Assembly (NCBI RefSeq): GCF_000158175.1
Contig: NZ_DS999411.1
Coordinates: 2,801,446 to 2,865,181, forward strand
Origin: Luminiphilus syltensis NOR5-1B
Lineage (GTDB): Bacteria; Pseudomonadota; Gammaproteobacteria; Pseudomonadales; Halieaceae
Reading direction: 5' to 3'
DNA: 63,736 bases
A program made the position numbers and the translations under genes. How positions within the stretch are numbered: position 1 is the first letter of the stretch; each line of letters starts with the position of its first letter. Shown here piece after piece: positions 36,917 to 46,139 of the stretch. The notes under the pieces are model-generated. The model did not search any database. It saw nothing but the letters and a program-made list of their open reading frames with translations, and was not told where the DNA came from.

Positions 36917-38452
36917 TCAATCCGAGTCCTTGCGAGCGGCTTCCATCATGGACCGCTTGTGCAACTTGCCATCTTCCTGTCTCGGCAAACGGTCATGAAA
37001 CACGAGAGAACTCGGCACCTGAATGTGCGAGAGACGCTCGCGCAGCCACTCCAATAATTCGAACGCGGTCTCATCCGTGGCGTCCGCCCAGTTCTCCGGC
37101 TCCACGACCACTCTGACAGACTCACCATGCTCATCACTGGGGACACCAAAAACGGCAACATCGGCCACTTTATCGTGGGTAATCAGTACGTTTTCGATCT
37201 CAGCCGGAAAAACATCAACACCCCCGCTGGTCACAGTGAACTCGGCACGATCCGTCAAATAGAGAAAACCCTCCTCATCAAGGTATCCCACATCACCGAC
37301 CGTTACCCAACCGTGTTCATTCGTCGCCGCCAGTGATTTTTCCCGGTCGCCGTGATAATCGAATGGGTGCTGAGGGTCGGCGAAAAAAACCTTTCCAATC
37401 TGCCCCGGCGGCAATTCTCTACCGTCAATCGAGACAATTTTGGGCTCGCCGAACAGGGGCTTACCCACCGAGCCTTTGTGGGCCATCCACTCTTCAGAAT
37501 CAATCACCGAGAAGCCAGCACCCTCACTCGCCGAGTAGTATTCGTAAATAATCGGGCCCCACCAGGCAATCATCGCCTCCTTTACCGCAATCGGGCACGG
37601 GGCGCCGGCGTGAATCGCCACCTGCATACTGCCGAGATCGAATTGGCCACTAACCTCTGCGGGCAGCTTGAGCATCTGCATGAACATCATCGGTACCCAC
37701 TGGCTATGGGTCACCCGATGGGTCTCGATCAAGGCAAGCGCCGCTTCAGCGTCGAAACGCTCCATAACAACCGAGGTGCCACCGGTGGCCAGTACCAGTA
37801 AGTTGTAATGAATCGGTGCCGCCTGGTAAAGCGGCGCCGTAGACAAATAAGTCGTTTCCGCGCCGAAGCCGAAAGCCGATCCCACAGAAACTTCCAAGGG
37901 GTGCGGCGCGTCATAATCCTTCGATACCCGAGGTGGTAATACCGCTTTGGGTCGGCCGGTGGTGCCCGCCGTATAAATCAGCGGCGCCCCCAGGGCCTGA
38001 TCATCAATCGCGCATTCGGGCATTTGATCGATGACCTCCTCAAAGGAATCCCAACCGTCGACCACACCATCCATCAGGTAACGCTGCGTGAGCCCGGTTA
38101 GTCCGGCCGCCGCCGCCTGCGCGATATCGACCCACTCGAGAGCCGCAAAAAACAAGGTGGCGCCGGAATTTTCCAGAATATGGCGTATATCCTCCTCCCC
38201 GAGGTGCGTTGGGATCGGGGAAAAAATGACTCCCGCTCGCTCAGCGGCGCAGGCAATTTCGATAAGCTCGCGTCGATTACCCATCAGTAGCGCGATATGA
38301 TCGCCCGTGTGAACACCCGCGGTGCGCAGTAGCTGCGCAATTTGATTGCTTCTCCGATCGAGGTCCCCGTAATCAACGACCTCGCCACTCGGGGCGAGAA
38401 TGAGGGCGGGTTTTGCGGGGGTTTCAGCGGCGGTAGCCGAGATATGCGGCAT
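36917..38452 (-). CDS. AMP-binding acyl-CoA synthetase (class I adenylate-forming)
   Basis: 511 residues. ATP-binding loop 'LIYTAGTTGRPKAV' near 160, A4-A5 region 'IIYEYYSASEGAGFSVI' near 300, 'WVTVGDVGYLDEEGFLYLTDRAEFTVTSGGVDVFPAEIENVL' near 385-425, and the catalytic lysine region 'PRQEDGKLHKRSM' near the C-terminus. It activates a carboxylic acid as acyl-AMP and transfers it to CoA; it resembles FadD4-type enzymes acting on bulky or medium/long acids, but the acid is unknown. Convergent with copA (11 bp) and divergent from the D-glutamate cyclase operon (78 bp), whose promoter region it shares. Confidence 0.9.
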   Translation of the reverse strand: MPHISATAAETPAKPALILAPSGEVVDYGDLDRRSNQIAQLLRTAGVHTGDHIALLMGNRRELIEIACAAERAGVIFSPIPTHLGEEDIRHILENSGATLFFAALEWVDIAQAAAAGLTGLTQRYLMDGVVDGWDSFEEVIDQMPECAIDDQALGAPLIYTAGTTGRPKAVLPPRVSKDYDAPHPLEVSVGSAFGFGAETTYLSTAPLYQAAPIHYNLLVLATGGTSVVMERFDAEAALALIETHRVTHSQWVPMMFMQMLKLPAEVSGQFDLGSMQVAIHAGAPCPIAVKEAMIAWWGPIIYEYYSASEGAGFSVIDSEEWMAHKGSVGKPLFGEPKIVSIDGRELPPGQIGKVFFADPQHPFDYHGDREKSLAATNEHGWVTVGDVGYLDEEGFLYLTDRAEFTVTSGGVDVFPAEIENVLITHDKVADVAVFGVPSDEHGESVRVVVEPENWADATDETAFELLEWLRERLSHIQVPSSLVFHDRLPRQEDGKLHKRSMMEAARKDSD

Positions 38453-38530
38453 GGAGTGTGCTCCTGATTATTTCCCAGCTACTATACAAGAGACCCGCAC
38501 ACACAATCATCAACAAGAGTAGGGATCGAT

Positions 38531-39325
38531 TTGAAAGATCACTGTCCTGACACCGGCGCTGCGGCACGCGCCGACATTCGACAAGGGTTATGGCGCAAGC
38601 CCACCAGCGGCATCGCGCCCGGATTCGTACAGTGTAATCTCGTGATTTTAGACACCGGGGCGGCCTCGGATTTTCTTCGCTTCTGCCAAACCAACCCAAA
38701 GCCCTGCCCCTTGCTCGCCATGAGCCCCGAACCTGGCGATCCCACATTACCGGCGCTTGGCGCATCGATTGATGTGCGGACGGACTGCCCGAGCTATCGT
38801 ATCTGGACACAGGGAGCGCTAACCACCGAGTGCGATAATCTCCTCGATCACTGGCAATCCGACCATGTCGCCTTTGCATTGGGTTGTTCATTTTCTTTCG
38901 AGGAGGCCCTCATCGCCGCGGGGGTTGAAGTGCGCCATATCACGGAGGGCGTTAACGTACCCATGTACCGAACCCATTTGCCCTGCGAGTCGTCCGGAGT
39001 GTTCCGCGGTACGATGGTCGTCAGCATGCGACCAATGAAACCCGCACAGGCGATTCGCGCAATACAGATCTGCGCGCGCTTCCCAACGGTGCACGGTGCT
39101 CCGATACATTTTGGGCAGCCCGAGGCAATTGGTATTAACGATCTTACGGCCCCTGATTTTGGTGAGGCCGTCTCCATAAGAGAAGGGGAAGTTCCCGTGT
39201 TCTGGGCCTGCGGGGTAACGCCTCAGGTTGCTTTGGAAAATGCGAAGCTACCCCTTGCATTTACCCACACTCCGGGGCACATGCTGATCACAGATTTACG
39301 TAATGCAGAACTGGCGGTAAATTGA
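38531..39325 (+). CDS. D-glutamate cyclase N-domain homologue (DUF1445, PF07286)
   Basis: 264 residues, the full length of the DUF1445/YcsI family once called putative hydro-lyase. In vertebrate D-glutamate cyclase (DGLUCY) this domain forms the N-terminal half, and the enzyme converts D-glutamate to 5-oxo-D-proline. Conserved segments: '[14 protein letters not shown]' near 27, '[15 protein letters not shown]' near 81, '[14 protein letters not shown]' near 116, 'NVPMYRT' near 142, '[10 protein letters not shown]' near 160, '[10 protein letters not shown]' near 248. TTG start with AGGGAT upstream. First gene of a seven-gene run: one base before pxpA. The partner half (DUF4392) is the fifth gene. 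Activity of bacterial stand-alone members is not established to my knowledge. Confidence 0.9.
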
Positions 39326-39326
39326 T

Positions 39327-40067
39327 ATGGCTAAGGCAATAACCCTCAATTGTGATCTCGGCGAGGGATTTGGCAAATGGAAGATGGGGCTCGACGAAGA
39401 AATGATGCCGCTGATCGACTGTGCCAATATCGCCTGCGGCTTTCACGCGGGTGATCCCTGCACGATCGAACGAACCCTCGAACTGGCGCGTCGACACAAA
39501 GTGGAAATTGGTGCCCACGTATCCTATCCGGATCTGCAGGGCTTCGGCCGCCGATCAATGGCGATACGGGGCCACGAGCTGGTCAATTTGATTCACTACC
39601 AAATGTCGGCGCTCGATGGCATGGCCCGTGTACACAATAAAAAGCTCGATTACGTTAAGCCCCACGGTGCGCTCTACAACGACATGATGAAAGATCTCGG
39701 CCTACTCAACGATGTGATGTCGGCCGTATCCAGCTGGCACAAGTCGGTGGATCTCGTGGTAATGGCGACCCCGAGAGATAAAAAATCGGTCGAGCTGGCG
39801 GTGGAGCACGGCCTCAACCTGCGCTTTGAGGCGTTCTGTGATCGCGGCTACACCAACGCCGGATATCTTATTGAACGGGGTAAACCTGGAGCATTACTGA
39901 GCACCGAGCAGGCCGTCGATCAGGCGCTGGCGGTCGCGAAGGGTGAGCTGCGTAGCAGCAAAGGTAAAAAACTGTCGATTACCGCCGACACACTGTGCCT
40001 GCATGGCGACACGCCGAATGCGGTGGCCGTGGCGACGGCGATTCGCGAAGCCCTCCAAGGGTATTAA
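39327..40067 (+). CDS. pxpA: 5-oxoprolinase subunit A (LamB/YcsF family)
   Basis: 246 residues, the usual size. PxpA with PxpB and PxpC forms the prokaryotic ATP-dependent 5-oxoprolinase that opens L-5-oxoproline to L-glutamate. Signature segments: 'LNCDLGEGFGKWKMG' at the N-terminus, 'ANIACGFHAGDP' near 33-44, 'IGAHVSYPDLQGFGRR' near 61-76, 'DYVKPHGALYNDM' near 108-120, 'EAFCDRGYTNAGYLIER' near 169, and 'LCLHGDTPNAVAVA' at the C-terminus. One base after the DUF1445 gene, six before pxpB, so part of one transcript. Confidence 0.96.
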   Translation: MAKAITLNCDLGEGFGKWKMGLDEEMMPLIDCANIACGFHAGDPCTIERTLELARRHKVEIGAHVSYPDLQGFGRRSMAIRGHELVNLIHYQMSALDGMARVHNKKLDYVKPHGALYNDMMKDLGLLNDVMSAVSSWHKSVDLVVMATPRDKKSVELAVEHGLNLRFEAFCDRGYTNAGYLIERGKPGALLSTEQAVDQALAVAKGELRSSKGKKLSITADTLCLHGDTPNAVAVATAIREALQGY

Positions 40068-40073
40068 ACCCCC

Positions 40074-40757
40074 GTGGCTGATATCACCCTGGCGGGTGAA
40101 CAGGGTTTACTGGTCACGTTCACCGGGGCACCCACACCCGAGACCAGCCGCCGTATCATAGCGCTCGCTGATTTTATTGAAGCCCGCTTTCCGACAGGCA
40201 TCAATGATGTTGTGCCCAGCTACACGACCCTCGGTGTCTTTTTTGAACCCGCAGCGCTGACCCGACCAACCGTCATGCACGAAATCCGGGAGTGGCTGGA
40301 ACGACCCCTATCAACAGGTTCCAGTCCCGCTATTGAGACCACACTACCCGTTTATTACGGCACCGAGGTCGCTCCTGATCTCGTGACGATTGCTGAAAGA
40401 ACCGGTCTCACCCCAGACGAAATTGTTCAATTACACACCCGTGAACGCTACCACGCGTATGCCAACGGATTTGCACCCGGTTTTTGCTATCTGGGACATC
40501 TCAATCCGCGGCTGTCCCAGCCCAGACGTTCCACACCCCGCGCCCGGGTACCCAAGGGATCTGTCGCCATCGCAGACCGCCAGACCGCCGTGTACCCCGT
40601 TGACTCTCCGGGTGGATGGCATCTCATCGGACGCTGCCCCCTACCCCTTTTCAACCCGGAATCTCGCACACCCAACCTGATATCGGTCGGCACCTTCGTA
40701 CGCTTCAAAGCGATAGAGCGAAGCGAATTCCTCGATCTCGGTGGTTCGCTTGAGTGA
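40074..40757 (+). CDS. pxpB: 5-oxoprolinase subunit B (KipI family)
   Basis: 227 residues beginning with GTG. Family marks: 'PTGINDVVPSYTTLGVFFEP' near 42-60, 'LPVYYGTEVAPDL' near 93, 'YANGFAPGFCYLGHL' near 128-142, 'PKGSVAIADRQTAVYPVDSPGGWHLIGRC' near 162-190, and 'PNLISVGTFVRF'. Works as a complex with PxpC; B. subtilis KipI also inhibits kinase KinA, but that role is not expected here. The start of pxpC overlaps its end. Confidence 0.95.
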   Translation: MADITLAGEQGLLVTFTGAPTPETSRRIIALADFIEARFPTGINDVVPSYTTLGVFFEPAALTRPTVMHEIREWLERPLSTGSSPAIETTLPVYYGTEVAPDLVTIAERTGLTPDEIVQLHTRERYHAYANGFAPGFCYLGHLNPRLSQPRRSTPRARVPKGSVAIADRQTAVYPVDSPGGWHLIGRCPLPLFNPESRTPNLISVGTFVRFKAIERSEFLDLGGSLE

Positions 40758-41715
40758 GTGGTTGATCGAGACCGTGTCCACACCCTGCACACTGCAGGAT
40801 GCGGGGCGCCAACACTCATTACGACTGGGGCTGAGCCCGGGAGGTGCGGTGGACCCTCCGGCCTACCGCTTGGGTCAGCGCCTGGTCGGAAACTCAAAAG
40901 ACGAAGCGGCCCTGGAAACCTGCTACGGATCTATCGCGCTCACAGCGGATGGACCCTGTACTGTGGCGGTAACCGGGCCTGACACCCCGGTACTGGTCGA
41001 TGGCGATAACATCGGTATCAATCGGGGGTTCCAGCTCGAAGCGGGCCAGCGACTGGAGCTACCGCCGCCGAGTCGGGGGGTCTACCACTATATCGCGGTC
41101 AAAGACGGATTCGATGTACCCGCGGTTTTTGGCAGCCACAGTACAGTTGTCCGCGAGGGTCTGGGCGGGCTTGCCGGTCGAGCGCTGGTCGCCGGCGATC
41201 GATTGATCCTGCGAACCGGATCTCCCGCCCCATTGCTGTGCTACCCGACCGTATCGCGCCGTGACGAATCACGGATACTCACGCTGCGATTTATCCCCTG
41301 CTTTCAGTTCGACCAGTTTCCAGAAGCGACCCGCAGACTGTTCAATACTGGATCCTTCAGCGTGACCGCCAGTGCCAATAGAATGGGAATAAAGCTCAGC
41401 GGAGACCCGCTCATAACCGGTATCGAAAAGTTATACTCCGAAACCACCTGTCTTGGCGCCATACAAATCCCGCCCGAGGGGAATCCTATTGTTCTTCTCA
41501 ATGACCGACAGACTGTGGGCGGCTATCCCAAGGCGGGGGCAGTAATCTCATCCGACTGTGTTCGGCTGGCGCAGGCCCGGCCGGGGCAGCAGGTTCGCTT
41601 CCAGCCCGTCACAGAGACCGAAGCTGATAGGATTCGCTGGTTGAACGATAACTTTGAGAGAGAGCGCATGCTCAAACCCGTAACGACACCGGGGCAAACC
41701 ATTGCCCATGACTGA
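40741..41715 (+). CDS. pxpC: 5-oxoprolinase subunit C (KipA / biotin-dependent carboxyltransferase-like)
   Basis: 324 residues, normal. 'TLQDAGRQHSLRLGLSPGGAVDPPAYRLGQRLVGN' near 17-50 is the family start; 'LETCYGSIALTADGPCTVAVTGPD', 'YHYIAVKDGFDVPAVFGSHSTV', 'ANRMGIKLSG' and 'PIVLLNDRQTVGGYPKAGAVISSD' follow in order. The first start is GTG at 40741 (17-base overlap with pxpB); an in-frame TTG at 40750 would leave an 8-base overlap. The stop overlaps the DUF4392 gene. Confidence 0.95.
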   Translation: MVRLSEWLIETVSTPCTLQDAGRQHSLRLGLSPGGAVDPPAYRLGQRLVGNSKDEAALETCYGSIALTADGPCTVAVTGPDTPVLVDGDNIGINRGFQLEAGQRLELPPPSRGVYHYIAVKDGFDVPAVFGSHSTVVREGLGGLAGRALVAGDRLILRTGSPAPLLCYPTVSRRDESRILTLRFIPCFQFDQFPEATRRLFNTGSFSVTASANRMGIKLSGDPLITGIEKLYSETTCLGAIQIPPEGNPIVLLNDRQTVGGYPKAGAVISSDCVRLAQARPGQQVRFQPVTETEADRIRWLNDNFERERMLKPVTTPGQTIAHD

Positions 41716-42568
41716 CGCCGAAATCAGTCGATTCAGTGACCAGATCGAAGCGCTACTGGTTAATCGAAATCCGCGCGGAATGTCGGGCGTCCGCGATGCG
41801 CTGAAACCGGGTTACGTCGCCCGTGCGGCCCGTCGTCTGCTCGATGCAGACAAGGAAATACTCATTGCAACCGGCTTTCCCGTAGCCAACACCTTCGAAA
41901 CCGATGGCCCCGCGGGGGCCATTGCGCTTTACGATTTCTGCCTGCAAGGTGGCGGGAGACCCGTACTCATGGCCGGTGCGCCACTCATCAACGCGATTGG
42001 TGCGGACCGGGCAACCCACATCATCAACGGTTTTTCGCAAGCCGACGCCGATCGCGAGGCCGAACGCTTTTTTGCAAAACATTCACCCTCGCTAATGATT
42101 GTTATCGAGCGACCCGGCGCCGCTGCTGACGGCCATTACTACAATATTACGGGCAAAGACATCAGCGCGGAGGTGCGTCCTTTTGAGCCCTGGGTCGACC
42201 GCGCGCCCTGCCCCGTTATTGCTATCGGCGATGGCGGTAACGAAATTGGTATGGGTAGCGCAGGAAAGGTCCTCGAAACCCTCAATATTCGGCCGGCGGT
42301 TTCCACCTGTGATGAGCTGGTGGTCGCCGACGTATCCAACTGGGGCGCGTATGCAATCATCGCCATGGCGCAGAAACTCAGTGACATTGAGCATCATTGG
42401 AGCATTCAACCGCGACGATTGCTCGGCATGTTGAGCGCTGCCGGGAGCGTTGACGGTGTCACCCACCAAAATACGCTGACCGAGGACGGACTTGATTGCA
42501 GCGAATGTGAAGACCTTCTGGATAAAATTCATCACGTGCTTTTTGCACCAACACCGACGGACGGGTAG
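41708..42568 (+). CDS. D-glutamate cyclase C-domain homologue (DUF4392, PF14336)
   Basis: 286 residues; the ATG at 41708 overlaps the pxpC stop by eight bases, and an upstream TTG at 41702 is also in frame. The domain forms the C-terminal half of DGLUCY. Visible family marks: 'LIATGFPVANTFETDGPAGAIALYDFCLQ' near 50-78, 'VIERPGAAADGHYYNITGKDIS' near 130, 'VIAIGDGGNEIGMGSAGKV' near 175-193 and 'DELVVADVSNWGAYAI' near 208. With the DUF1445 gene at the operon head, the operon encodes both halves of the cyclase as separate chains. In other bacteria either domain can occur alone, so joint action is inferred from operon membership. Confidence 0.9.
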   Translation: MTDAEISRFSDQIEALLVNRNPRGMSGVRDALKPGYVARAARRLLDADKEILIATGFPVANTFETDGPAGAIALYDFCLQGGGRPVLMAGAPLINAIGADRATHIINGFSQADADREAERFFAKHSPSLMIVIERPGAAADGHYYNITGKDISAEVRPFEPWVDRAPCPVIAIGDGGNEIGMGSAGKVLETLNIRPAVSTCDELVVADVSNWGAYAIIAMAQKLSDIEHHWSIQPRRLLGMLSAAGSVDGVTHQNTLTEDGLDCSECEDLLDKIHHVLFAPTPTDG

Positions 42569-42573
42569 CACCA

Positions 42574-43434
42574 GTGACAACCGCTTTTGTAAATGGGGAT
42601 TTTTTACCGCTCGAGTCAGCGGCCATCTCGCCGATGGACCGGGGTTTCCTGTTTGGTGATGGTATCTATGAGGTCATTCCCTGCCGCGAGGGCCGCATGA
42701 TGGCATTTACGCGGCATATGTCTCGATTACAGGACGGTCTCGATGCCATAAACATCGATAACCCCATGACAACCGACGACTGGCATACCTGCCTCGAAAA
42801 ACTTCGAAGATCAGCTGCCGCCGATGACTGCGCCATCTATTTGCAGGTCACTCGCGGGCCCGCCTCTACCCGTAACCACAAGTATCCGGCCACATCCGAG
42901 CCAACTGTCTTCGCCTATAGCTATTCGATACCGGCTGCCAGCGACGGCGCCCCCTCGACTGCCACCGGCTTACGGGTGATCACCGGCCGGGATCGTCGCT
43001 GGCAGCGCTGCAACATAAAATCAGTTTCCCTGCTGGGTAATGTGCTACACCTCATGGAGGGTGTTGAGGCCGGTGTCGAGGAAATCCTTTTGTTCAACGA
43101 CAGAGACGAACTCACAGAAGCCGCCGCGTGCAATGTGTTCATCACTGATGGCGATCGAGTCATCACACCACCCCTGGACCACCAAAAGTTACCGGGAATT
43201 ACACGCAGCGTATTAATTGATCTTATGCGTCGAGACGGCGGGTGGAACATCGAGGAAGCCATTATCACCCGCCAACAGGTGCGACGAGCAGACGAGGTAT
43301 GGCTGACCAGTGCCACAAAAGATATTGCACCCGTGATAGAGGTCGACAATCGATCTGTGGGTGACGGCACCCCCGGGCCACTCTGGTCAAAGGCCCAGAC
43401 GCTGTTGTATCGGCATCGCTTCGATCTGGATTAG
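42574..43434 (+). CDS. D-amino-acid transaminase (class IV, fold IV PLP enzyme)
   Basis: 286 residues, the size of Bacillus D-alanine aminotransferase. GTG start five bases after the DUF4392 stop. Seen: 'MDRGFLFGDGIYEVIP' near 21-36, 'LQVTRGPASTRNHKYPAT' near 90-107 (the RG-x-RxH-x-P stretch shared by D-transaminases), PLP-lysine Lys149 in CNIKSVSLLGNVL, and Glu182 in 'DELTEAAACNVFI'. It would exchange D-alanine plus 2-oxoglutarate with pyruvate plus D-glutamate. Branched-chain aminotransferase and aminodeoxychorismate lyase share the fold but lack that RG...H segment. Alanine racemase follows, which supports the D-alanine link. Confidence 0.88.
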   Translation: MTTAFVNGDFLPLESAAISPMDRGFLFGDGIYEVIPCREGRMMAFTRHMSRLQDGLDAINIDNPMTTDDWHTCLEKLRRSAAADDCAIYLQVTRGPASTRNHKYPATSEPTVFAYSYSIPAASDGAPSTATGLRVITGRDRRWQRCNIKSVSLLGNVLHLMEGVEAGVEEILLFNDRDELTEAAACNVFITDGDRVITPPLDHQKLPGITRSVLIDLMRRDGGWNIEEAIITRQQVRRADEVWLTSATKDIAPVIEVDNRSVGDGTPGPLWSKAQTLLYRHRFDLD

Positions 43435-43448
43435 GCAAACGGAAAATC

Positions 43449-44504
43449 ATGTCAAGACCCACCCTGTTATCGATAGATCTCGATGCCCTGGTTCACAACG
43501 CGAAATTGTGTCAATCGCTGGCGGCCCCCAGTCGCTTCATGGCGGTGATCAAAGCGGATGCCTATGGGCATGGCGCCGTACCGTGCGCACGGGCACTACG
43601 CGGCATTGCCGACGCCTTCGCGGTCGCCCTTGTTGAGGAAGCGGTAGAACTGCGCGCGGCAGGAATATCCGAACCTATCCTGGTGATGGAAGGCCTGTTC
43701 TCTGCCGACGATATGCGCCACATTGTTGAGCATAAGCTGTGGCCGGTTATCCATAGCCGGCATCAATTGGACTACCTATCACCTGAACACCATGGCACGC
43801 CGCTGTGGCTGAAAATTGATACCGGTATGCATCGCCTTGGTATAGAGCCCGAAAAGTTACCTCAGATGCTGAGCCGGATTCGCGAGCTGGGTTTCTCGGA
43901 TATCACTCTCATGTCCCATCTCGGGGATGCAGAGAATCCGGATACGGCATTAAGCCAGCGTCAGATCGACGCCTGGCAGAACATCACCGGCCAACATTCC
44001 AGCGTCACCAGCCTGTGTAACTCAGCGGCGGTCGCGCAGCGGTCGGTGCCGGAGTCCAGCTGGGTTCGTGCCGGCTACATGCTCTATGGTGGGCAGACCA
44101 CTCCGAATCCACTGCCTCTAAAGCCGGTCATGTCTTTCCAGTCGGCGGTTATGGCCCTGAGGACAATCGCTGCGGGCGAGACCGTGGGCTATGGGGGACG
44201 CTGGTGTGCACAGAGACCCAGCGTTATCGCCACCGTCGCTGCGGGCTATGCCGATGGATACCCGCGATCCGCCGAGGATGGTACGCCGGTTAACATCGGC
44301 GGAGAAATAGCGCCCCTGGTCGGCCGCGTTTCCATGGATATGGTCACCGTAGATGTCACCGACCTCCCCGGGGTAAAGATAGGTACCCCGGCCCTATTGT
44401 GGGGGGCAAGTCCTACCATCGATGATGTCGCCAATAGGGCCGGTACCATCGGCTATGAGCTGACTGCGAGGATGCCGCCACGAACCCCGCGGACCTACGG
44501 GTAA
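43449..44504 (+). CDS. alr: alanine racemase
   Basis: 351 residues, typical of gammaproteobacterial Alr/DadX. PLP Lys35 in 'AVIKADAYGHGAVP', the second base Tyr248 in 'GETVGYGGRW', 'AAGYADGYPRSAEDGTPV' and 'GRVSMDMVTVDVTDLPGVK'. Interconverts L- and D-alanine. Fourteen bases after the transaminase gene, last member of the seven-gene run. Whether this is the housekeeping or a catabolic (DadX-like) copy cannot be told; operon context favours a catabolic or balancing role. Confidence 0.95.
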   Translation: MSRPTLLSIDLDALVHNAKLCQSLAAPSRFMAVIKADAYGHGAVPCARALRGIADAFAVALVEEAVELRAAGISEPILVMEGLFSADDMRHIVEHKLWPVIHSRHQLDYLSPEHHGTPLWLKIDTGMHRLGIEPEKLPQMLSRIRELGFSDITLMSHLGDAENPDTALSQRQIDAWQNITGQHSSVTSLCNSAAVAQRSVPESSWVRAGYMLYGGQTTPNPLPLKPVMSFQSAVMALRTIAAGETVGYGGRWCAQRPSVIATVAAGYADGYPRSAEDGTPVNIGGEIAPLVGRVSMDMVTVDVTDLPGVKIGTPALLWGASPTIDDVANRAGTIGYELTARMPPRTPRTYG

Positions 44505-44630: not shown

Positions 44631-46139
44631 GTGGCGCCATATCGATCGAAACCCCTCGCTGAAGGCGACTTACTTGCCGCCATCGATCTTGGCAGTAACT
44701 CCTTTCACCTCATTGTTGCCCGTGTTGAGCACGGGGAAGTTCGTCCGGTGCATACCCTCGCCGAGCGCGTCCAACTCGGTGCGGGGCTAAAGAAATCGAA
44801 ACTCGATTCTGATGCCATAGCCCGGGGACTCGCCTGTCTCGCGCGATTCGGCCAATTGCTGGACAGTGTCGAGCCGCGACGTATCAGAGTGGTCGGTACC
44901 AATGCCCTGCGTCAGGCGAAAAACTATCGATCGTTTACCGAGCCCGCCGCCAAACTACTGGGGGTTCCTGTCGATGTTGTCTACGGTCGCGAAGAAGCGC
45001 GCCTGGTCTATCTGGGCGTCGCCCATACCCTCGCCGATGACGAACATTCGCGGCTTGTTATTGATATTGGTGGTGGTAGTACGGAATTCATCGTTGGGCA
45101 GCGATTTGAACCCATTCGTTTGCAAAGTCTGCAACTCGGTTGCGTCAGCTATACCCAGCGTTTTTTCCCCAAGGGCGTCATCAGCAAACAACACTTCAAA
45201 AACGCCTATGACCAGGCGCGCCTCGAGGTTTCTCATATCAGAAAGCAATTCGACGCGCGGCACTGGAAAGAGTGCGTAGGTTCGTCGGGAACACTGCAGG
45301 CGATCGAGGCGCTCGCAAAGAGCTCCGGGCTGACCAGCGGAGGAATCGACAGCGCGGCACTGAAGGCGTTGCGAAAGGCCCTGTTGGGTTTTGAAACCAT
45401 GGCCGACATAAAGCTTGAAGGGTTGAGTGAAAAACGCAGGGATGTCATTGCCGCCGGTGTCGCCATCACTCAGGCAATATTTGACGGACTGGATATTGAT
45501 CAGATGCGTACGTCAAGTGGCGCACTTCGTGAGGGCGTCATCTACGATCTCATGGGGAGATTAAGCCACGAAGATGTGCGTGAACGCTCGATAGCAGCAA
45601 TGCTGCAACGCTATAAATCCGACGAAACGGTCGCGGAGCTGGTCTCGCGACGGGTGGGCTATCTTGCCGAGCGCGTACAGGACGCCTGGAAACTCAGTGA
45701 TGCCAATATCGAGCTACTGCGCTGGGCGGGTCGTAGCCATGAGATTGGGATTGCGATTGCACAGAAACACTATCATCGGCACTCGGCTTATTTGCTGCTG
45801 AACTCAGATCTGCCCGGTTTCTCACAGAATGAGCAGGAGATAATGGCGACGCTCGTAAAGGGACTCCAGGGAAAAATTCGGGACGATCTGCTGGAAGACA
45901 TTCCGAAGAATGAGCGCGAAAAAATATCGCGCATGATTGCGCTCCTGCGATTGGCGGTGGTTTTCAAATATGTTGAATCCCTGGTGACGCTACCCGACTT
46001 TTCCGTTGAGGTCAGCGATAATACACTGACCCTCACCTTCCCTGACGGCTGGCACGATCTGCACCCGCTGACCACCTGGGAGATCAAGGAGAGCGAAGCG
46101 GCAATGAAAAAGCTAGGCGTTAAATTAAAATTGGCCTAA
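44631..46139 (+). CDS. ppx: exopolyphosphatase
   Basis: 502 residues with GTG start at 44631 and AAGGGA nine bases upstream. Ppx/GppA family: ASKHA phosphatase domain with 'AAIDLGSNSFHLIVARVEHG' near 15-35, 'VVGTNALRQAKN' near 86, 'VVYGREEARLVYLGVAHTL' near 115 (catalytic Glu in GREEARL), 'VIDIGGGSTEFIVG' near 143 and 'GSSGTLQAIEAL' near 218. A C-terminal HD-like helical domain (about 310-500) distinguishes full-length Ppx. It removes terminal phosphate from polyphosphate. The next gene is an alkaline phosphatase. Confidence 0.96.
   Translation: MAPYRSKPLAEGDLLAAIDLGSNSFHLIVARVEHGEVRPVHTLAERVQLGAGLKKSKLDSDAIARGLACLARFGQLLDSVEPRRIRVVGTNALRQAKNYRSFTEPAAKLLGVPVDVVYGREEARLVYLGVAHTLADDEHSRLVIDIGGGSTEFIVGQRFEPIRLQSLQLGCVSYTQRFFPKGVISKQHFKNAYDQARLEVSHIRKQFDARHWKECVGSSGTLQAIEALAKSSGLTSGGIDSAALKALRKALLGFETMADIKLEGLSEKRRDVIAAGVAITQAIFDGLDIDQMRTSSGALREGVIYDLMGRLSHEDVRERSIAAMLQRYKSDETVAELVSRRVGYLAERVQDAWKLSDANIELLRWAGRSHEIGIAIAQKHYHRHSAYLLLNSDLPGFSQNEQEIMATLVKGLQGKIRDDLLEDIPKNEREKISRMIALLRLAVVFKYVESLVTLPDFSVEVSDNTLTLTFPDGWHDLHPLTTWEIKESEAAMKKLGVKLKLA

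Follow-up and report, generated by a model that had tools for sequence, protein, structure and literature searches.

A conserved gammaproteobacterial operon combining a putative split D-glutamate cyclase and 5-oxoprolinase with a transaminase of the D-amino-acid type and alanine racemase

Almost every bacterial wall requires D-glutamate, whose usual maker, the glutamate racemase MurI, is a drug target. The mouse DUF1445-DUF4392 fusion protein converts D-glutamate to 5-oxo-D-proline, with no racemase activity and no formation of L-glutamate, and its knockout leads to accumulation of D-glutamate (PMC5339696). The metalloenzyme TON_0340, a DUF4392 protein of solved structure, acts as a phosphatase on generic substrates with Mn2+, but at a very low level (PMC5132392). 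Growth on 5-oxo-L-proline requires Pxp genes (PMC13274462), and the glutamate/5-oxoproline equilibrium is about 0.035, favouring the ring (work cited in PMC13274462). The transaminase Dat interconverts D-alanine and D-glutamate and can cover the loss of MurI (PMC5458566, PMC8105722). Members of all these families stand together in Luminiphilus syltensis NOR5-1B, where a stretch of 63,736 nucleotides (contig NZ_DS999411.1, positions 2,801,446 to 2,865,181; hereafter the window) carries an operon of seven genes encoding DUF1445, PxpA, PxpB, PxpC and DUF4392 proteins, Dat and the alanine racemase Alr.

The operon is real, conserved and apparently undescribed; it brings known enzyme families together in a new way, and its function is read here from sequence. 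A preliminary description of the window had known of no operon with all these parts, and the open-licence literature agrees: among the matches listed, judged by title and the start of the abstract, no published bacterial operon of this kind was found. On balance, and by a modest degree, we favour the view that, in a bacterium that has no glutamate racemase, it manages the D-glutamate pool through a supply arm and a drain or salvage arm. One operon would then pair probable makers of wall D-alanine and D-glutamate with probable recyclers of surplus D-glutamate to ordinary glutamate. This view draws on which genes are present and on their conserved order, on active sites that are intact, a single alr and the lack of a MurI match, and on the finding that DUF4392 occurs together with DUF1445 and Dat.

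Gene content and conserved residues

The seven genes, all on the plus strand between 38531 and 44504 (Table 1), are spaced in gene order by 1, 6, -17, -14, 5 and 14 bp, negative values denoting overlaps. Open reading frames and Pfam and NCBIfam matches agree with the tightly packed set drawn in the preliminary description, which gave overlaps of 8-17 bp. The overlap of pxpC with the DUF4392 gene, 14 bp from a start at 41702, shrinks to 8 bp if the latter begins at ATG 41708, on reading of the sequence the likelier start. The operon includes no transporter, as had also been noted.

Table 1. Positions and supporting matches of the operon genes, the region before them and regulator genes at related loci (G numbers denote sampled genomes and L numbers loci or fetched neighbourhoods; coordinates without a label are window positions)
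Feature	Coordinates	Strand	Match or basis
Presumed operon promoter region, 78-bp gap before divergent acyl-CoA synthetase gene	38453..38530	.	gene ends
DUF1445 protein, putative hydro-lyase; first half of vertebrate D-glutamate cyclase	38531..39325	+	PF07286 3e-67, 225 bits
PxpA, 5-oxoprolinase subunit A	39327..40067	+	PF03746 (LamB_YcsF) 1.4e-87, 294 bits
PxpB, 5-oxoprolinase subunit B	40074..40757	+	PF02682 (CT_C_D) 1.1e-66, 225 bits; TIGR00370 159 vs 145.55 cut-off
PxpC-like subunit, divergent	40741..41715	+	PF02626 (CT_A_B) 3.2e-78, 263 bits
DUF4392 protein; second half of vertebrate D-glutamate cyclase	41702..42568	+	PF14336 (GLUCM-like_C) 4.8e-58, 197 bits
Dat, class IV aminotransferase of D-amino-acid transaminase type	42574..43434	+	PF01063 (Aminotran_4) 2.4e-47, 162 bits
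Alanine racemase Alr	43449..44504	+	TIGR00492 303 bits vs 168 cut-off; Ala_racemase_N 201, Ala_racemase_C 142 bits
LysR-type regulator between DUF4392 and Dat	L027:7760-8737		
LysR-type regulator between DUF4392 and Dat	L029:10162-11079		
LysR-type regulator between DUF4392 and Dat	L033:10826-11809		
LysR-type regulator between DUF4392 and Dat	L034:8221-9129		

All seven proteins score far above the gathering scores of their Pfam families. The DUF1445 and DUF4392 proteins are each the single match of their kind in the genome (3.26 Mb, single contig, 99.8% complete); the former passes its NCBIfam model (NF003969, 392.7 bits, cut-off 324) and has the solved relatives 3db9 and 2pif (UPF0317), the latter 4fc5 and 4dwz (TON_0340). 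PxpA passes two NCBIfam subfamily cut-offs (NF003816, 319.8 vs 213 bits; a second model, 284.9 vs 226), lies under those of three equivalog models and resembles solved UPF0271 proteins. PxpC is the weakest identification of the seven despite its strong Pfam match, being under both NCBIfam cut-offs (PxpC equivalog, 202 vs 500 bits; TIGR00724, 213.8 vs 230.2) and on a very long end branch of the PxpC tree (3.45). The nine best solved sequences for Dat are D-amino-acid or D-alanine aminotransferases, several of them variants of one enzyme. Alr resembles solved alanine racemases, and at E up to 1e-20 the genome gives no second match to this family.

Across the window and its relatives in the order, the six DUF4392 metal ligands, assigned from TON_0340 (E66, D68, E136, D177, E181 and D251), are invariant in 23/23 sequences, as are Dat Y32, R51, R100, H102, K149 and E182 in 22/22 and Alr K35 and Y248 in 20/20. 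K149 of Dat is presumably the lysine that binds pyridoxal phosphate, accompanied by a glutamate (E182) and a carboxylate trap of tyrosine, arginine and histidine (Y32, R100 and H102), and K35 and Y248 of Alr are taken to be the catalytic lysine and tyrosine. By sequence, these three proteins look like working enzymes. On this family and residue evidence the gene identities and the operon reading of the preliminary description stand, and so, as a prediction, does its route through L-alanine, D-alanine, D-glutamate, 5-oxoproline and glutamate.

Consensus scans found no sigma-70-like site in the presumed promoter region and no terminator-like site in the intergenic gaps of the operon. The region holds one promoter-like site, on the minus strand (4.3 expected), and 12 terminator-like sites (5.9 expected), those on the plus strand past the operon start lying at 38655, 39212 and 39570, within DUF1445 and pxpA. 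Such counts carry no weight as functional evidence, and co-transcription is what we infer.

Outside the operon, the divergent acyl-CoA synthetase gene upstream (36917-38452) and a Ppx/GppA gene downstream (44631-46139) apparently recur near it in a number of genomes from the window's family group (clusters c0 in 5 loci and c3 in 4, identities judged by eye from sequence). A flavin adenine dinucleotide-dependent oxidoreductase of the DAO family (PF01266; 57737-58882, minus strand), 13 kb from the operon, is possibly another amino-acid oxidase.

Conservation and spread of the gene order

Conservation of the cluster in relatives, the check that the preliminary description had set, was found. In a sample of 145 genomes of the order, DUF4392 scores above cut-off in 23, from 11 family groups, and for these carriers 22 neighbourhoods were fetched and compared with the window. 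The full set DUF1445-PxpA-PxpB-PxpC-DUF4392-Dat-Alr stands in 17 of the 23, from eight family groups. Since gene order and strand persist over eight families at 35-66% protein identity, the arrangement is more than chance. All 23 genomes also carry DUF1445 and Dat. Among the departures, G133 and G123 have Dat without an adjoining Alr (G123 also without Pxp); DUF4392 is without PxpB and PxpC beside it in G043, without DUF1445 in G119 and without all three in G002, and it stands alone in G092. DUF1445 is located elsewhere in the genome in G119, G002 and G092.

A scan of named genomes gave at least 504 candidates encoding a DUF4392 relative, the best 80 loci of which, picked by similarity and not at random, were examined. 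All seven genes are in order in 38 of these 80; 16 run from DUF1445 to Dat without Alr (in at least L057, L069 and L108 the contig ends just past Dat), nine lack both Dat and Alr (two of these loci run into a contig end), a further six are cut by a contig end but terminate in DUF4392-Dat-Alr, and 11 take other forms. The closest DUF4392 relatives among the matches listed come from four Luminiphilus metagenome-assembled genomes and one of the Halieaceae (51-55% identity). Class-wide, DUF4392 is present in just 3/370 sampled genomes, the host's own included.

Could the cluster be ordinary 5-oxoproline housekeeping, in which PxpABC and its usual neighbour DUF1445 lie by chance before dat-alr with no metabolic link? 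DUF1445 is found within about 7 kb either side of the pxp genes in 12/18 genomes without DUF4392, Bacillus subtilis carries a DUF1445 (a control of the genome search), and in the DUF1445 tree the operon rows are not one group, L150 and L151, which are without DUF4392, falling inside. Against chance stand the recurrence of the seven-gene order in eight families and the trees of PxpA and PxpC, in each of which a single branch separates the operon rows (40 and 34, respectively) from DUF1445-only and Escherichia coli Pxp proteins, with moderate support (PxpA 59/99, PxpC 81/68; recovered in 58% and 86% of bootstrap trees). In all three trees (PxpA, PxpC and DUF1445) the operon of G133 is placed with Marinomonas instead of with the family of its host, which would fit a transfer of the whole block. 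We regard the housekeeping explanation as improbable. The grouping of the PxpA and PxpC rows and the placement of G133 in three trees suggest that the operon has been inherited, and at least once transferred, as a unit.

Four of the 17 full-set genomes carry a LysR-type regulator gene between DUF4392 and Dat (Table 1), a candidate regulator of the module. A match to such a LysR protein occurs in 10/105 neighbourhoods, those four and six more from named genomes, each time by coordinates between these two genes (on the opposite strand in L062, a partial match in L075). The other 95, the window's family group included, gave none; the search did not take in the window, where the gap between DUF4392 and Dat is too short for any gene.

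Variants of the cluster were also seen. PxpA occurs without adjoining PxpB or PxpC in L158, L159 and L160 (Pseudoalteromonas replicons) and in L043, L045 and L127. Five Rheinheimera loci (L078, L092, L099, L109 and L126) read PxpABC-DUF4392-Dat with no DUF1445 in the stretch, all in MurI-bearing genomes, and Rheinheimera D18 (L097) has DUF1445 upstream in a genome without MurI. A distant DUF4392 (30% identity) on a plasmid stretch of Agrobacterium tumefaciens (L161) has a threonine/serine dehydratase and a RidA protein as neighbours, and bhcA and bhcB of the beta-hydroxyaspartate cycle follow at a distance of a few genes; from this setting the wider DUF4392 family may have other substrates.

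Glutamate racemase, Dat and Alr across genomes

No match to MurI was found in the host genome (99.8% complete), where MurL and bifunctional DapF were not searched for, a limit to be counted with the objections gathered below; bifunctional DapF is reportedly a MurI substitute in Chlamydia (PMC5885031). The MurI model gave matches in 10/14 control genomes, 8 of them above cut-off. In the order sample 42/145 genomes lack MurI, counting as lacking seven with weak racemase-like matches (G008, G012, G041, G072, G116, G122 and G144) and as bearing it G076, which has a partial match at a contig edge; G093, at a sub-cut-off 19.6 bits, was counted as DUF4392-negative. MurI is absent from 17/23 order genomes with DUF4392 vs 25/122 without (Fisher P 1.3e-6; kinship among the genomes inflates the P values of these associations). 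Dat, found in 36/42 MurI-lacking vs 18/103 MurI-bearing genomes, is tied to the loss more strongly than DUF4392 is; among genomes with Dat of the operon type (at least 400 bits) 20/25 lack MurI, vs 22/120 of the others. Where the cluster includes Dat as well as Alr, 17/20 are without MurI; where DUF4392 has no adjoining Alr, 0/3 are. The 18 order genomes that have DUF1445 without DUF4392 all bear MurI.

Three genomes (G009, G038 and G120) have no MurI, DUF1445 or DUF4392, yet keep an adjacent Dat-Alr pair, set among apparent housekeeping genes in G038 and G120 and after pxpABC and a phosphoribosyltransferase-like gene in G009. Because the pair is kept there without DUF1445 or DUF4392, we read Dat-Alr as the supply that the cell cannot do without, to which the cyclase-Pxp arm has been added. 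These genomes bear equally on the idea that the operon makes D-glutamate in reverse, L-glutamate being cyclised, epimerised as 5-oxoproline by DUF1445 or DUF4392 and reopened as D-glutamate. DUF4392 does accompany MurI loss in the order, and the cyclase halves have no settled single-domain chemistry, the phosphatase activity of TON_0340 being very low (PMC5132392). Nevertheless, MurI-lacking genomes that do without DUF4392 retain Dat-Alr, the mouse enzyme forms 5-oxo-D-proline from D-glutamate and no L-glutamate (PMC5339696), and ring opening is assigned to PxpB and PxpC with PxpA, while PxpBC is not beside PxpA in some loci. Biosynthesis in reverse is very improbable.

Six of the 42 MurI-lacking order genomes are also without a Dat match, so that other D-glutamate sources probably exist in the order. 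A second class IV protein of the host (L128:3326-4207), its sole other match at E up to 1e-40 (148.7 bits), was rejected as a D-glutamate-making Dat, because its best-scoring model is one for branched-chain aminotransferases (256.7 bits, under that model's cut-off of 363) and no Arg-x-His motif was seen on reading its sequence.

Supply and drain of D-glutamate, and known systems

In the proposed supply arm, Alr would convert L-alanine to D-alanine, whose amino group Dat would transfer to 2-oxoglutarate to give D-glutamate. With no MurI match and no alr found outside the operon, both D-amino acids of the wall are likely to come from Alr and Dat. In the drain or salvage arm, DUF1445 and DUF4392 together would cyclise D-glutamate to 5-oxoproline, downhill and without ATP, and PxpABC would open the ring to glutamate at the expense of ATP; the two steps would make a one-way exit for D-glutamate that needs no reversible racemase. 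The D-glutamate to be drained may be an excess from a near-equilibrium transaminase or a release from wall turnover. Of the salvage-or-drain role in the preliminary description, draining is still preferred for the first five genes; dat and alr are probably an essential supply of wall D-alanine and D-glutamate and more than a branch of salvage. Cells that lack MurI may use these enzymes for supply, and other cells may use them for salvage.

A series of observations weighs against supply and drain in a racemase-free cell. The two best NCBIfam models for Dat, both D-transaminases, are under cut-off (236.3 vs 320 and 209.5 vs 277.45). Three order genomes (G001, G061 and G069) hold the full cluster plus MurI. 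Permutation within the six mixed families gives a weak P of 0.079 for DUF4392; that on the Dat-Alr pair (four families) gives 0.005 in a test picked after inspection of the data. At class level MurI absence is common, the racemase being matched at E up to 1e-30 in 119/370 genomes and in none of the other 251. In a second set of 42 DUF4392 genomes (40 of the best 80 named loci, picked for diversity, plus G377 and G454; partly repeating order genomes, with L059 = G095 and L065 = G037), 33/42 are without MurI, not above the class background (P 0.16), and MurI is missing in 14/16 with Alr in the cluster and also in 19/26 without. These class and second-set counts led us to reject the idea that loss of MurI cleanly marks the operon throughout the class. 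Transcribing supply and drain together looks wasteful unless regulated. The weak joint is stereochemical: a D-ring must end as L-glutamate, and the link is missing because the mammalian cyclase gives 5-oxo-D-proline while PxpABC is described for 5-oxo-L-proline.

Dat is matched at E up to 1e-40 in 42/42 genomes of the second set, even where it does not adjoin DUF4392, in G521, G527, G541 and G542 by a more distant match alone (205-219 bits). The 251 class genomes without a MurI match may make D-glutamate by Dat, MurL or otherwise.

For the stereochemical step, either the PxpABC subgroup of the operon would open 5-oxo-D-proline and inversion would follow, or one of the partners would epimerise the ring, and any conversion of 5-oxo-D-proline to L-glutamate, like the reaction directions, is put forward as a prediction. 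Speculatively, and with fairly low confidence, DUF1445, DUF4392 and this PxpA(BC) subgroup might form a stereo-inverting, ATP-driven, one-way converter of D- to L-glutamate via 5-oxoproline, one partner epimerising 5-oxoproline or opening its D-form, that replaces the reverse MurI reaction in bacteria that gave up glutamate racemase.

A catabolic explanation has the operon feed on D-alanine and D-glutamate of peptidoglycan, from the cell's own turnover or the environment. Dat would shift the nitrogen of D-alanine to D-glutamate and yield pyruvate, the cyclase and PxpABC would return L-glutamate, and Alr would be a housekeeping gene carried along. Three Pseudoalteromonas replicons examined (five have a match) read GH3-DUF1445-PxpA-DUF4392-Dat without adjoining PxpB, PxpC or Alr; one has an MFS transporter, a dipeptidase and regulators downstream, and the GH3 protein of strain CF6-2 finds its best NCBIfam match in the beta-N-acetylhexosaminidase NF003740 (190.6 bits vs cut-off 207). 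This cluster looks like one for salvage of wall fragments, and CF6-2 is said, by the title of a study, to metabolise D-alanine by a D-alanine aminotransferase, which may or may not be the Dat of the cluster. The nine named loci that stop short of Dat and Alr read DUF1445-PxpABC-DUF4392, which also suits catabolism. The window operon, however, has neither transporter nor hydrolase, the best matches of the MFS protein are to AraJ or chloramphenicol-efflux types and not to a muropeptide permease, and GH3 is confined to the Pseudoalteromonas loci. The Dat-Alr pair kept in genomes without DUF1445 and DUF4392 is a better fit to supply, and no alr besides that of the operon was found in the genome. 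Catabolic salvage is possible but rather doubtful. GH3 and dipeptidase as general partners of the operon were rejected (3/105 and 1/105 neighbourhoods, Pseudoalteromonas only).

If supply and drain is right, an operon of marine Gammaproteobacteria probably makes D-glutamate without MurI and removes it by a split cyclase of the mammalian type. Both DUFs would gain a bacterial pathway, with a hint at the division of labour within the human protein, and D-amino-acid turnover in the sea an additional route.

How does this arrangement compare with known systems? A marine route that returns D-glutamate to L-glutamate, like the proposed drain, is the DgcN/DgcA pathway of marine Proteobacteria, which reportedly proceeds via N-acetylation and racemisation; none of its families was among the matches of the seven operon proteins, the part of the genome searched for them. 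Among bacterial pxp operons, that of B. subtilis (PMC10448178) comprises ycsF, ycsG, ycsI, kipI and kipA, of which ycsI is presumably the DUF1445 gene. PxpABC is common to the B. subtilis operon, pxpTABC of Corynebacterium glutamicum, pxpBCA of E. coli K-12 and the window operon, and DUF1445 is often near; the window operon differs in having no YcsG/PxpT-type transporter, in the addition of DUF4392, Dat and Alr, and in PxpA and PxpC that group apart. In the MurI-independent D-glutamate supply of Staphylococcus aureus (Dat) and mycobacteria (Rv0812/MSMEG_5795), Dat links the D-alanine and D-glutamate pools as proposed here (PMC5458566, PMC8105722); S. aureus Dat exists beside MurI, whereas the window genome gave no MurI match and its dat shares an operon with alr and the genes of a putative D-glutamate cyclase. 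Like vertebrate D-glutamate cyclase (DGLUCY, mouse 9030617O03Rik), the operon has both DUF1445 and DUF4392, with the six DUF4392 metal ligands kept. The vertebrate protein is one fusion, whereas the operon has two separate genes for the putative cyclase, joined to those of a predicted ATP-driven ring-opening enzyme.

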